In this document: positions 560 to 3,605 of the stretch, in pieces
How positions within the stretch are numbered: the stretch's first letter is position 1
Layout of the letters: every line of letters begins with the position of its first letter
Position numbers and translations under genes: made by a program
Assembly: GCF_030812295.1 (NCBI RefSeq)
Contig: NZ_JAUSSK010000001.1
Coordinates: 992,001 to 1,056,000 of the forward strand
Direction of reading: 5' to 3'
Source of the DNA: Luteibacter jiangsuensis
GTDB lineage: Bacteria > Pseudomonadota > Gammaproteobacteria > Xanthomonadales > Rhodanobacteraceae
DNA: 64,000 bases
The notes under the pieces: generated by a model
The model's input: only the letters and a program-made list of their open reading frames with translations
The model's database searches: none
What the model was told of the DNA's origin: nothing

Positions 560-1189
560 TCAGGTTCGGATCAGGCCGCGCTCCTGCGCCATCCGATAGA
601 GATCCAGTTCCGAGCCCGCGTTGAGCTTGTTCATCACCGCCGCGCGGTGGATGTAGATCGTCTTCTGCCCGATCCCGAGTTCCGCGGCCACCTGCTTCGG
701 TGCGCGTCCAGCGGCCAGCAACAGGAAGACCTCCCGTTCGCGGGCCGTCAGGCGATTGAACGGGTCCAGGTCGGTCGTGGGCCGGCCCGAACGGCGTTCG
801 CGCAGGTCGGAACTCAGGTACTGGTCGCCGCCGAGCACCGAACGCACCGCGGCCACCAGTTCCTCGGGCGCCACGCCCTTGGTCACGTAGCCACGCGCAC
901 CGCGGCGCAGTGCTTCGGATACGTAGGGTTCGCCATCGTGCATGCTCAGAACGATAATCTTCATGCCCGGCGCGATGCTGCCCAGGTGCTCGATCAGCGG
1001 CAGTCCGCTGCCGTCAGGCAGGGACAGGTCCACCGCCACCAGGTCTGGCCGATGCTGGGTGACGGCGTCCACCGCTTCGTCGGCGTTGCGGGCTTCGGCG
1101 ACGACGTCGAGGTCGGGTTCCAGCTCGATGAGGCGCTTGAAACCCTCACGAACGATGGCGTGGTCATCTACAAGGACGATTCTGGGCAT
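560..1189 (-). CDS. LuxR/NarL-family response regulator
   Basis: This 209-residue protein has an N-terminal receiver domain (DDH acidic pocket near residues 8-10, phospho-acceptor Asp54 in VAVDLSLPDG, conserved Lys in VTKG near 104) and a C-terminal LuxR-type helix-turn-helix (LTAREREVFLLLAAG from about 143). A longer open frame exists upstream, but the ATG at 1189 starts the canonical PRIVLVDDH receiver sequence. The gene is divergent from the histidine kinase gene starting at 1279, so the two probably form a two-component pair sharing a 90-bp promoter region. The input signal is unknown. Confidence 0.92.
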   Translation of the reverse strand: MPRIVLVDDHAIVREGFKRLIELEPDLDVVAEARNADEAVDAVTQHRPDLVAVDLSLPDGSGLPLIEHLGSIAPGMKIIVLSMHDGEPYVSEALRRGARGYVTKGVAPEELVAAVRSVLGGDQYLSSDLRERRSGRPTTDLDPFNRLTAREREVFLLLAAGRAPKQVAAELGIGQKTIYIHRAAVMNKLNAGSELDLYRMAQERGLIRT

Positions 1190-1278: not shown

Positions 1279-2898
1279 ATGCGACTACACGGTCTTTCAC
1301 GCTTCGCCGGCCCCTTGTTCGCGCTCGCGTACGCCGCGGCGTGGGTGATGCTGTGGCCGACCGAGCAGCCTTATTGGGTGCTGCCCTTCGGCCTGCGCTT
1401 CGGCGCACTGCTGTTGATGCGCACGCGCCACTGGTTCTGGATCCTCGGCGCCGAGATCGCCGCCAGCGCCTTTTGCGAATGGCGCAGTGGCCTGCCGATC
1501 GGGGGCGCGGGCTTCGTCCTTGGCGACGCTCCCGAGCCGCTGATGGTGGCCGCCTGCCTGTGGCTGCTGCGTCGCGCGCACCTGCACGCCAGCCTCAATA
1601 CGCCCGAGGACGTCGCCCGCCTGCTGCTCTCGGCCATGGTCACCGCCACGGTAGCCACCGCCGGCAACGCCGCGATGATGGCCTCCATGCATCCCGCCGC
1701 CCCGGTGGAGATGCTGGGTACCACCTTCGGCAGCGACCTGCTCGGCAACTACCTGGGCGTGCTGCTGGTGGTGCCGGTCATGATCCTCGCGTTCCGCGAG
1801 CGGCCCACGCAAGCGGCGATGGGCGAACTGTTGCTCGATGGCCTGCTGGTGATGCTGCCCTCGCTCGCCATCCTGATCACGCTCGCCGAATACTCGCCGC
1901 AACCGCAGTTCGCCCGGGTCCTCTCCCTGGCGCCGGTGTTGTTCTTCGCGTTCCGCCACGGCTGGCGCGGCGCCGGCCTGGCCATGCTGATCACCAGCGT
2001 GGGGCTGAACGTCACCGAGGACATGATCGGCCGCGGGGCACCCACGGCGGCCGCCCATCTGTTCCTGGCCGTGGCGGGCACGGGCACGTTGATGCTCGGT
2101 GCGGCGACCGATGCGCTGCGCCGCAGCAGCGAGCGCGTGGCCCAGCAGAACACCCACCTGGCCGCCGCCAACCAGCGCCTGGACCAGCTTGCGCGGCAGC
2201 TGCGGGATGCCGCGCGCGGCAACCTTCAGGCGGAGGAAAACCTGCGCCGTCACATGGCCGCGGAACTGCACGACGAACTCGGCCAGAACCTCACCGCGAT
2301 CCAGACCCACCTGAAACTGGCCCAGTCGCGCCTGGGCAGCGCGGGACTGGAAGACATCGGCATGTCGATCAACGGCATCCTCGGCCATATGCGCCGGGCC
2401 CTGCACAAGATGCTCGACAGCCTGCGTCCTTCCGTCCTGGATGAGTTCGGTCTGCTGCGCGCCCTGGACGAAGGCCCCGTGCGCGACATGCTCACCGCCG
2501 CGGGCATCCACTACGTAACCGACCTGCGCGGCGACCCCCGCCTGCTCGACGACGACACCCTGACGGCCATCTACCGTGTCGTCCAGGAGAGCGCGACCAA
2601 CGTGGTGCGGCACTCCGGCGCCCGTCAGATGAAGCTGCGCCTGCGTATCGGCCTGCGCGACAGCGGGCCGGTGGCGATCCTCGATATCCGTGACGACGGG
2701 GCCGGCCTGCCCTCCACCCCACGCCCCGTCCGCACCGATGGCGGTGGCCGTGGATTGCAGGGAATGAGCGACCGGATCACGGCCCTCGGTGGCCTCTTTC
2801 GCATCCGTCCCGAGCCTGTAGGGCTTCACCTCCGCGTGCTGCTTCGCAGCACAAGTATCGGAAGCAACATAGGAAATTTTCCGATACCGGGTGGATGA
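1279..2898 (+). CDS. MASE1-type membrane sensor histidine kinase (HisKA_3)
   Basis: The protein has 539 residues from the ATG at 1279 (MRLHGLSRF). The N-terminal ~270 residues form a multi-pass hydrophobic region resembling the MASE1 sensor domain. A coiled-coil-like linker follows, then a HisKA_3 dimerisation domain with the phospho-acceptor His331 in AAELHDELGQNL, and a HATPase_c domain with the N box ESATNVVRHSGA and the glycine boxes DDGAGL and GGGRGLQGM. HisKA_3 kinases of the NarX/UhpB/DegS kind pair with LuxR-type regulators, which fits the divergent neighbour. An upstream in-frame ATG at 1219 is less likely because it adds a non-conserved basic stretch. The ligand cannot be told from sequence. 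Confidence 0.9.
   Translation: MRLHGLSRFAGPLFALAYAAAWVMLWPTEQPYWVLPFGLRFGALLLMRTRHWFWILGAEIAASAFCEWRSGLPIGGAGFVLGDAPEPLMVAACLWLLRRAHLHASLNTPEDVARLLLSAMVTATVATAGNAAMMASMHPAAPVEMLGTTFGSDLLGNYLGVLLVVPVMILAFRERPTQAAMGELLLDGLLVMLPSLAILITLAEYSPQPQFARVLSLAPVLFFAFRHGWRGAGLAMLITSVGLNVTEDMIGRGAPTAAAHLFLAVAGTGTLMLGAATDALRRSSERVAQQNTHLAAANQRLDQLARQLRDAARGNLQAEENLRRHMAAELHDELGQNLTAIQTHLKLAQSRLGSAGLEDIGMSINGILGHMRRALHKMLDSLRPSVLDEFGLLRALDEGPVRDMLTAAGIHYVTDLRGDPRLLDDDTLTAIYRVVQESATNVVRHSGARQMKLRLRIGLRDSGPVAILDIRDDGAGLPSTPRPVRTDGGGRGLQGMSDRITALGGLFRIRPEPVGLHLRVLLRSTSIGSNIGNFPIPGG
2855..2887. promoter_or_regulatory. 9-bp perfect inverted repeat, possible regulator site
   Basis: GTATCGGAA (2855-2863) and TTCCGATAC (2879-2887) form an exact inverted repeat with a 15-bp spacer. 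It lies inside the last codons of the kinase gene and about 57 bp upstream of the predicted start of the structured RNA. It could be an operator for an activator such as the neighbouring LuxR-type regulator, or an RNA hairpin at the end of the kinase message. The assignment is an inference from position and symmetry only. Confidence 0.35.
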
Positions 2899-2927
2899 AC
2901 GCTTCGTTACGATCCCATTATCGATGT

Positions 2928-3119
2928 GGGGGAGCCGCCGTCGAGAGACGGTGAGCCCAGGTCGGTCGTGGGGACGATCGACCTGATGAGGCGACAGGAT
3001 GTCAGCCTCGCCGGTGCGACATGGAGATCGGGATCCAGCGAGCAACTCGCGATCCACGAACCTTGAAGACGCCGGATCAAGCCGTCGGTGGACAGGAGTC
3101 CGCCGGCGGCGTTTTTTTT
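2928..3119 (+). ncRNA. Candidate structured small RNA (Rsm/CsrB-like, GGA loops)
   Basis: This ~190-nt stretch has no credible gene but folds into consecutive strong hairpins. H1 is 2936-2953 with a GAGA loop. H2 is 2959-2984, 11 pairs with a GGGG loop. H3 is 2988-3009 with loop AGGAU and one bulged A. H4 is 3031-3055, with GGAUC and GCGAG arms around a CA bulge. The terminator hairpin is 3081-3110, 13 pairs with loop AGGA, followed by eight T. Unpaired GGA motifs recur in the 5' leader, in two loops (and GGGGA at the H2 loop edge) and in the 3021-3025 linker, as in RsmA/CsrA-sequestering RNAs; AGGAUGU in H3 matches the 3' part of the CsrA consensus. A weak -10 (CATTAT, 2916-2921) would start transcription near 2928. 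The downstream gene fur is on the other strand, so this is not a leader of it. Confidence 0.6.
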
Positions 3120-3150
3120 GGCCCTTCGAAATCCGGATGCTACCCAATAA

Positions 3151-3172
3151 AAAAGGCCCCGCAGGGCCTTTT
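3151..3172 (-). terminator. Rho-independent terminator of fur
   Basis: AAAAGGCCC (3151-3159) and GGGCCTTTT (3164-3172) form a 9-bp stem with a four-base loop. The A/T-rich arms make it able to act in both directions. It sits just after the fur stop and also backs up the terminator of the structured RNA on the other strand. Confidence 0.85.
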
Positions 3173-3191
3173 CTCGTTGCGGCAAGCGGGA

Positions 3192-3605
3192 TCAGCGCTT
3201 CTTCTTGGGCCGGACGTACAGCACCAGGCTGTGGTCCTCGATGACGTAGCCGTGGCGCTCGGCGATCTCGTGCTGGAGGCGTTCGATCTCCTCGCTAATG
3301 AACTCGATCACTTTTCCGCTGTCCACGTCGATCATGTGGTCGTGATGCTTGCCGCGGTCCAGCTCGTACACCGCCTGCCCGCCCTCGAAGTTGTGCTTCA
3401 TGACGATGCCGGCAGCTTCGAACTGGGTCAGGACGCGGTACACCGTGGCAAGCCCGATGTCCTCCTGGTGCGCAAGCAGGCGCTTGTAGATGTCTTCGGC
3501 CGTGAGGTGGCGTTCCTCTGCCTCTTCGAAGATCTGCAGGATCCGCATGCGCGGATGCGTGACTTTCAGGCCCGCCTTGCGGAGCTCTTTGGTTTCCTGG
3601 TCCAT
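3192..3605 (-). CDS. fur: Ferric uptake regulator Fur
   Basis: This 137-residue protein is colinear with Fur: a winged helix (KVTHPRMRILQIF to DIGLATVYRVLTQFEAAG), the metal-binding segment HHDHMIDVDSGKVIEF around residues 87-102, and the C-terminal dimerisation strand HSLVLYVR. Fur with Fe(II) represses iron-uptake genes. The protein contains no cysteine at all; the CxxC structural-zinc motif of E. coli Fur reads DVDS here. It is divergent from bamE across 72 bp, an arrangement known for omlA-fur in Xanthomonas, so the promoters probably overlap. Confidence 0.96.
   Translation of the reverse strand: MDQETKELRKAGLKVTHPRMRILQIFEEAEERHLTAEDIYKRLLAHQEDIGLATVYRVLTQFEAAGIVMKHNFEGGQAVYELDRGKHHDHMIDVDSGKVIEFISEEIERLQHEIAERHGYVIEDHSLVLYVRPKKKR

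Follow-up and report, generated by a model that had tools for sequence, protein, structure and literature searches.

A conserved RNA family with CsrA-type GGA loops beside a UhpBA-like two-component pair in Rhodanobacteraceae: a candidate Csr/Rsm sponge

The locus between the kinase gene and fur

The window, by which we mean the whole stretch of 64,000 nucleotides of Luteibacter jiangsuensis that was analysed, contains a non-coding RNA of about 200 nt between two protein genes, one for a UhpB-like sensor kinase, which ends directly upstream on the same strand, and the other fur, which is transcribed towards the RNA. The gene of a NarL/UhpA-type response regulator is divergent from the kinase and the RNA (Table 1). 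The searches with the regulator used positions 560-1213 or 560-1216, and the family searches with the kinase used 1276-2895. A tmRNA gene (RF00023, 5529-5921) lies beyond the fur-bamE-ratA-smpB block and is the only Rfam match in the whole window at gathering scores.

Table 1. Coordinates of the RNA, its parts and its neighbours (positions in the window)
Feature	Position	Strand	Remarks
NarL/UhpA-type response regulator (Response_reg + GerE)	560..1189	-	would activate the RNA; start codon set by eye
UhpB-like sensor kinase (MASE1 + HisKA_3 + HATPase_c)	1279..2898	+	presumably paired with the regulator; start codon set by eye
Promoter box TAGGAAATTTTCCGATA	2870..2886	+	imperfect inverted repeat centred at about -42; proposed site of the adjacent response regulator
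-10-like element TACGAT	2908..2913	+	TAGGAT and TAGCAT in relatives; spans -12 to -7, counted from 2920, where the spacing is the commonest one
sRNA gene	2920..3119	+	start inferred, 3' end at U8; fold, relatives, covariance model
Leader AUCGAUGUGGGGGAGC	2920..2935	+	GGA at 2931-2933; may also pair with CGCCGG after H3
H1	2936..2953	+	7 bp, no GGA; 5 of 7 pairs with changes on both sides
H2	2958..2985	+	12 bp, loop region CGUGGGGACG; 9 of 12 pairs with changes on both sides
H3	2990..3007	+	CAGGAUG loop (CsrB-type repeat); 4 of 6 pairs with changes on both sides
H4 GCGAGCAACUCGC	3038..3050	+	no GGA; 1 of 5 pairs with changes on both sides
Linker GGA before the terminator	3074..3076	+	by eye present in many, not all, alignment rows
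H5, intrinsic terminator	3081..3119	+	loop AGGA 3094-3097, U8; 6 of 12 pairs with changes on both sides
fur	3192..3605	-	convergent neighbour; usually, not always, beside the RNA

Positions 2900-3125 fold at -121 kcal/mol, compared with -89.5 ± 4.6 kcal/mol for 200 dinucleotide shuffles (z -6.8), none of which folds as low, and one intrinsic terminator is found at the end of the RNA, against 0.5 ± 0.8 in shuffles. The first-pass annotation of this DNA had placed five hairpins and a U8 terminator here, and the sequence, the fold and the terminator scan all agree with it. Its stems, described as perfect over 7-13 bp, are so except in H3, which has a bulged A, and in H4, where the conserved core is only 5 bp; of the extent that it gave (2928-3119) the end stands, whereas the start more probably lies slightly upstream. 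Transcription most likely begins near 2920, a position to which the conserved leader AUCGAUGUGGGGGAG and the conserved -10-like hexamer both point, the latter having its canonical placement relative to such a start. A consensus scan scored no sigma-70 promoter on the + strand at the RNA, so that the placing of the start depends on the conservation of these elements; an activated promoter whose -35 element is poor might be passed over by such a scan.

The same annotation had seen no gene in this stretch. Among 115 distinct copies we found no conserved reading frame from the AUG of the leader: in 46 copies the frame runs through the whole of the 195 nt read, and in 69 it meets a stop after 13-53 codons. 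A protein-coding reading of the locus was rejected for this reason. The RNA is a real, conserved RNA family and apparently an undescribed one. Our searches of the open-access literature turned up no description of an RNA at the kinase-fur locus. No Rfam Csr/Rsm family (CsrB, CsrC, RsmX, RsmY, RsmZ) matched positions 2700-3300 at an E limit of 10, or any of 12 related loci at an E limit of 1; the six matches that Rfam gives around the RNA at the former limit all lie far below their gathering scores.

Covarying stems and GGA loops

To describe the variation of the RNA we used an alignment, made without structural information, of 38 RNAs less than 93% alike, taken from 50 of the loci that blastn had found in Rhodanobacteraceae (the 30 best and 20 picked for spread). 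RNAalifold proposes 47 pairs for this alignment, 25 of them with changes on both sides, and none of the local hairpins is without a compensatory change. The paired cells amount to 97.5%, compared with 88.4% in the shuffled and 35-51% in the slid controls, and cells with double changes number 194, compared with 58 and 7-35, respectively. H4, which is without GGA, is well conserved nonetheless and was found in 100 of the 115 copies by a loose expression. RNAalifold also proposes a possible long-range helix between the leader and the CGCCGG downstream of H3, which shows no compensatory change.

GGA occurs in the leader (2931-2933), in the loop of H2 as GGGGA (2970-2974, its A being paired in the model), in the loop of H3 (2997-2999), in the linker (3074-3076) and in the loop of H5 (3095-3097), the five places where the first-pass annotation had put it; an additional GGA near 3023 is not retained in the other genera of the alignment. 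If the A of GGA is allowed as the closing base, the 38 RNAs, which are related and not independent, carry on average 3.0 hairpin loops with GGA, compared with 0.51 in dinucleotide shuffles (60 for each RNA). In 102 of the 115 distinct copies a stem of three or more pairs closes an H3 loop of the form CAGGA(U/A/C)G, and of the remaining 13 eleven keep GGA in another form and two (L018 and L109) are without it. H5 has CAGGAG, closed by a stem and with a T run behind it, in 114 of the 115, and CATGGAG in L042. The annotation had taken a lack of conserved stems or GGA loops in relatives as what would speak against its reading; we find instead stems that covary and GGA loops in nearly all copies.

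According to PMC7652899, CAGGA(U/A/C)G is the repeat of CsrB, lying either in hairpin loops or in single-stranded parts, and RUACARGGAUGU is the CsrA ligand obtained by selection. The loops of H3 and H5, as CsrA-like sites, match this repeat. The genome has one copy of csrA, and residues 1-57 of its product show few differences from CsrA homologues of solved structure (E 3.8e-28). Among the genomes searched, G020 has three CsrA-like genes (C18:1698144-1698299 and 1872351-1872473), one with an in-frame stop, and the other 17 have a single copy.

Several GGA motifs in hairpin loops, a feature of CsrA/RsmA-sequestering RNAs, are present in the aligned RNAs, but not in the divergent copy of genome G006 (L193, 59 bits). 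This copy has lost GGA from the loops of H3 and H5, and as many GGA-bearing loops are found in 69 of 200 shuffles, in a genome that does contain csrA; it is the best case against reading the RNA as a CsrA sponge. The same copy keeps the promoter box described below, as well as a G-rich leader and a G-rich H2 loop. GGA motifs by themselves prove little, because RsmU of Xanthomonas with all four GGA changed is reported still to bind RsmA, in a smaller complex, and to keep its effect on overexpression (PMC7694677).

The most constant parts of the RNA are the leader and the loop region of H2. The 12 nt GATGTGGGGGAG from position 2923 (2923-2934, alignment columns 4-15) are identical in all 38 aligned RNAs, with slight alterations in four divergent copies (L193-L196), and the 10 nt of CGUGGGGACG (2967-2976) are likewise invariant in 38 of 38. 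Such strict conservation exceeds the need of a CsrA site, so something else may act there; it points to a further contact at the leader and H2 loop region, whether with a second protein, by RNA-RNA pairing or at the start of transcription.

Distribution, promoter box and two-component pair

By blastn, the RNA is present in 107 of 197 genomes of Rhodanobacteraceae. A covariance model (E 0.01) matches 101 of 398 genomes of the order, 97 of them in Rhodanobacteraceae by the named matches, and four weak matches outside the family (20-25 bits) were rejected, with no match to the response regulator, the kinase or Fur in about 6 kb around them. At the level of the class (E 0.001), one of 369 genomes matches, namely the window's own. 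The runs on order and class used stricter filters, by which weak matches can be lost. The first-pass annotation had spoken of an Rsm-like RNA of Xanthomonadales; the Rsm-like part of this gains support from the features of the sequence, while the order proves too wide, the model finding the RNA in one family only.

An exact pattern scan of the genome_contigs collection (84,980 species) returned 106 stretches, 97 with the promoter box; the other nine have neither box nor a match to the model (E 0.01) and were rejected. The genera among the 80 pattern matches listed are Dyella, Rhodanobacter, Luteibacter, Frateuria, Fulvimonas, Pinirhizobacter and Oleiagrimonas, and thus belong to Rhodanobacteraceae. 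Leader and H2 loop region were set by the search pattern, which by itself makes them the same throughout the pattern-match set; H3, H5, the box and the synteny were outside the pattern. A few carriers are metagenome bins with other titles (Thiobacillaceae for L120, Eremiobacteraeota for L159, Proteobacteria for L116 and L153). In L120, L153 and L159, Fur, BamE or the kinase is as close to that of the window as are those of Dyella and Rhodanobacter, and we therefore take the odd titles as probable mis-binning, L120 and L159 probably being mis-binned contigs.

Among the named loci, all 65 testable for the regulator have it in place, all 75 testable for the MASE1/HisKA_3 kinase have that, and 81 of 83 have fur within range. 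In L109 and L180 the RNA and the kinase are present with fur out of range downstream, so that the locus is separable from fur; these two cases suggest that the RNA accompanies the two-component pair and not fur. Among 52 genomes of Rhodanobacteraceae, 46 have the regulator at an identity of at least 66%, and 44 of these match the RNA model, while in the other two (G001 and G025) the box precedes a hairpin RNA with GGA that has diverged and that the model misses, with two GGA loops in G001 (reached by 7 of 200 shuffles) and three in G025 (0 of 200). The six genomes without such a regulator have no RNA match. Four relatives of the regulator in other families (44-51% identity) were tried and have no box; in three of them inspection by eye of the 500 nt that follow the kinase showed no comparable RNA, and the fourth (L205) has no kinase match. 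A relative at 41% identity (L210) was inspected for the box and the neighbours only.

The palindromic box TAGGAAWTTTTCCRATA precedes the RNA by 50 ± 1 nt, and the RNA-bearing genomes have few other copies of it. The Luteibacter genome has it without mismatch at the RNA only, its other sites having two and three mismatches. With at most one mismatch, the consensus is found in 102 of the 398 genomes of the order, including 95 of the 97 that bear the RNA; the remaining seven have no match to the RNA model, one of them being G001 with its diverged RNA, and a reversed control pattern gives two matches in all 398. A second site is present in G009 alone among the RNA-bearing genomes with the box, and no comparable RNA was seen by eye at that site (L208) or in the partial stretch inspected at the two-mismatch site of the Luteibacter genome (L053). 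The box is found 49-51 nt from the RNA, with at most three mismatches, in 114 of 123 distinct promoter stretches, the other nine being the rejected chance matches. The two half-sites of L183 show matching changes (TAAGAA...TTCTTA), which is what one would expect where a dimeric protein binds. The centre of the box is at the classical position of an activator. A link to the adjacent LuxR-type regulator, which the first-pass annotation had offered as possible, is strengthened by this rare box at fixed spacing and by the co-occurrence.

The regulator falls short of the UvrY/SirA/GacA family, the model of which gives it 131.7 bits at a cut-off of 280; the MctR and UhpA models score it higher, also below their own cut-offs.

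A candidate Csr circuit and its alternatives

Our preferred reading, to which we give a probability of roughly three in four, is that the RNA is a CsrB/RsmZ-like small RNA that would sequester CsrA/RsmA and would be transcribed under the adjacent regulator. Considered separately, its being a Csr/Rsm-type sponge is very probable on the features described above. The MASE1/UhpB-type kinase would sense a signal and phosphorylate the NarL-type regulator beside it, the regulator would bind the palindrome and switch on the RNA, and the RNA would bind several copies of the single CsrA/RsmA of the genome, so that the mRNA targets of CsrA would be set free. The RNA is probably the main direct target of the regulator, and perhaps its sole one. 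It counts against a sponge that the loop sites number only three, compared with approximately 18 repeats in CsrB.

The RNA resembles known Csr systems in part. With CsrB and CsrC of Escherichia coli, which are controlled by BarA-UvrY, it shares the CAGGA(U/A/C)G loop repeats (PMC7652899) and, as proposed here, control by a response regulator of the FixJ/NarL class, csrB and csrC being described as the strongest targets of UvrY (PMC4682653). It differs from them in adjoining its presumed regulator, and in the position of the palindrome, which is given as about -183 for csrB (PMC4682653). RsmX, RsmY and RsmZ of Pseudomonas, under GacS-GacA, are also small RNAs with GGA hairpins and are comparable in size to the Luteibacter RNA, and their systems have a hybrid kinase of the GacS type, unlike the UhpB-like MASE1 kinase here. 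GacA of P. aeruginosa is reported to bind sRNA genes only (PMC4682653); the activator box of the Luteibacter RNA is a different one. RsmU (sRX061) of Xanthomonas campestris, from the same order, is an RsmA-binding RNA with GGA that is stated to be absent from Rfam 13 and to be processed from the 3'-UTR of comEA (PMC7694677), whereas the Luteibacter RNA has the kinase and fur as neighbours and a conserved promoter region of its own; we set the two apart by this description. Xanthomonas genomes are reported to be without homologues of CsrB and CsrC (PMC7286519). The class that the first-pass annotation assigned, CsrB/Rsm-type, is upheld by the GGA sites in loops and qualified by the lack of an Rfam Csr/Rsm match and by the one divergent copy without two of its GGA loops.

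The alternatives differ in how much of this they would replace. Chance hairpins in GC-rich intergenic DNA have a negligible probability, being refuted by the covariation and disfavoured also by the fold z of -6.8 and by the distribution of covariance-model matches. It is very improbable that the RNA is the 3'-UTR or terminator of the kinase mRNA, perhaps processed as RsmU is: its position immediately after the kinase gene, with the same orientation, would suit this, as would the lack of a scored sigma-70 promoter, but a conserved box and a -10-like hexamer at fixed spacing in 114 distinct promoters speak against it. A more serious alternative, though still an unlikely one, is a regulator-controlled RNA that acts mainly by base-pairing of its G-rich leader and H2 loop region with C-rich mRNA, CsrA binding being incidental. 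The invariance of these two segments beyond the need of CsrA favours it, and so does G006, where G-rich forms of both are kept and the GGA loops of H3 and H5 are lost; yet in the family at large GGA is kept in precisely these two loops while the stems change, and the base after GGA in H3 varies between U, A and C, as it does in CsrB.

The identity of the activator is a separate question. GacA/UvrY is the known activator of Csr RNAs (PMC4682653), and the Luteibacter genome encodes a GacA-like response regulator of its own (L212, C3:634115-634768; 224.9 bits at the cut-off of 280), next to an RNase E-like (rne-like) C-terminal frame named by eye. One might hence suppose a CsrA sponge that is activated mainly by this GacA-like protein, with the adjacent pair as a conserved bystander. 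The GacA-like gene is, however, present in all 23 genomes compared, the Luteibacter genome and 22 chosen others (49-85% identical), whether or not they have the RNA; these include six members of the family that have no RNA match, that are also without a close orthologue of the adjacent regulator and, in the listed cases, without the box at one mismatch or fewer. Moreover, the promoter box differs from the GacA palindrome, TGTAAGN6CTTACA, the canonical one, which we assume to be right for this GacA-like regulator and which has no match at the RNA promoter with up to two mismatches. With this evidence the GacA alternative is quite improbable, and the neighbour, not GacA, is the likely activator, as judged from co-occurrence and position.

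The RNA and the adjacent pair form an unusual arrangement, and the chances are about even that it is a self-contained Csr cassette, in which a UhpBA-like pair would have the neighbouring sponge RNA as essentially its sole direct target and would have taken over the GacA input into Csr in Rhodanobacteraceae, though a GacA-like regulator is still present. Were this so, a testable Csr circuit would be at hand for a whole family (Dyella, Rhodanobacter, Luteibacter, Frateuria), with a candidate dedicated two-component input, and a regulator outside the GacA family could be said to take over a Csr control point. The small number of genomic box sites makes the prediction of the regulon easy to test.

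The GacA palindrome itself, at up to two mismatches, is no commoner in the Luteibacter genome than a reversed control (24 per strand compared with 40). No recognisable GGA-hairpin RNA was seen by eye, and no relevant Rfam match found, after its only perfect copy. This copy (L214:1501-1518, C2:627976-627993) has a speE-like gene on one side and, downstream, a speA-like gene, both named by eye; a link of the GacA-type palindrome to polyamines is possible.
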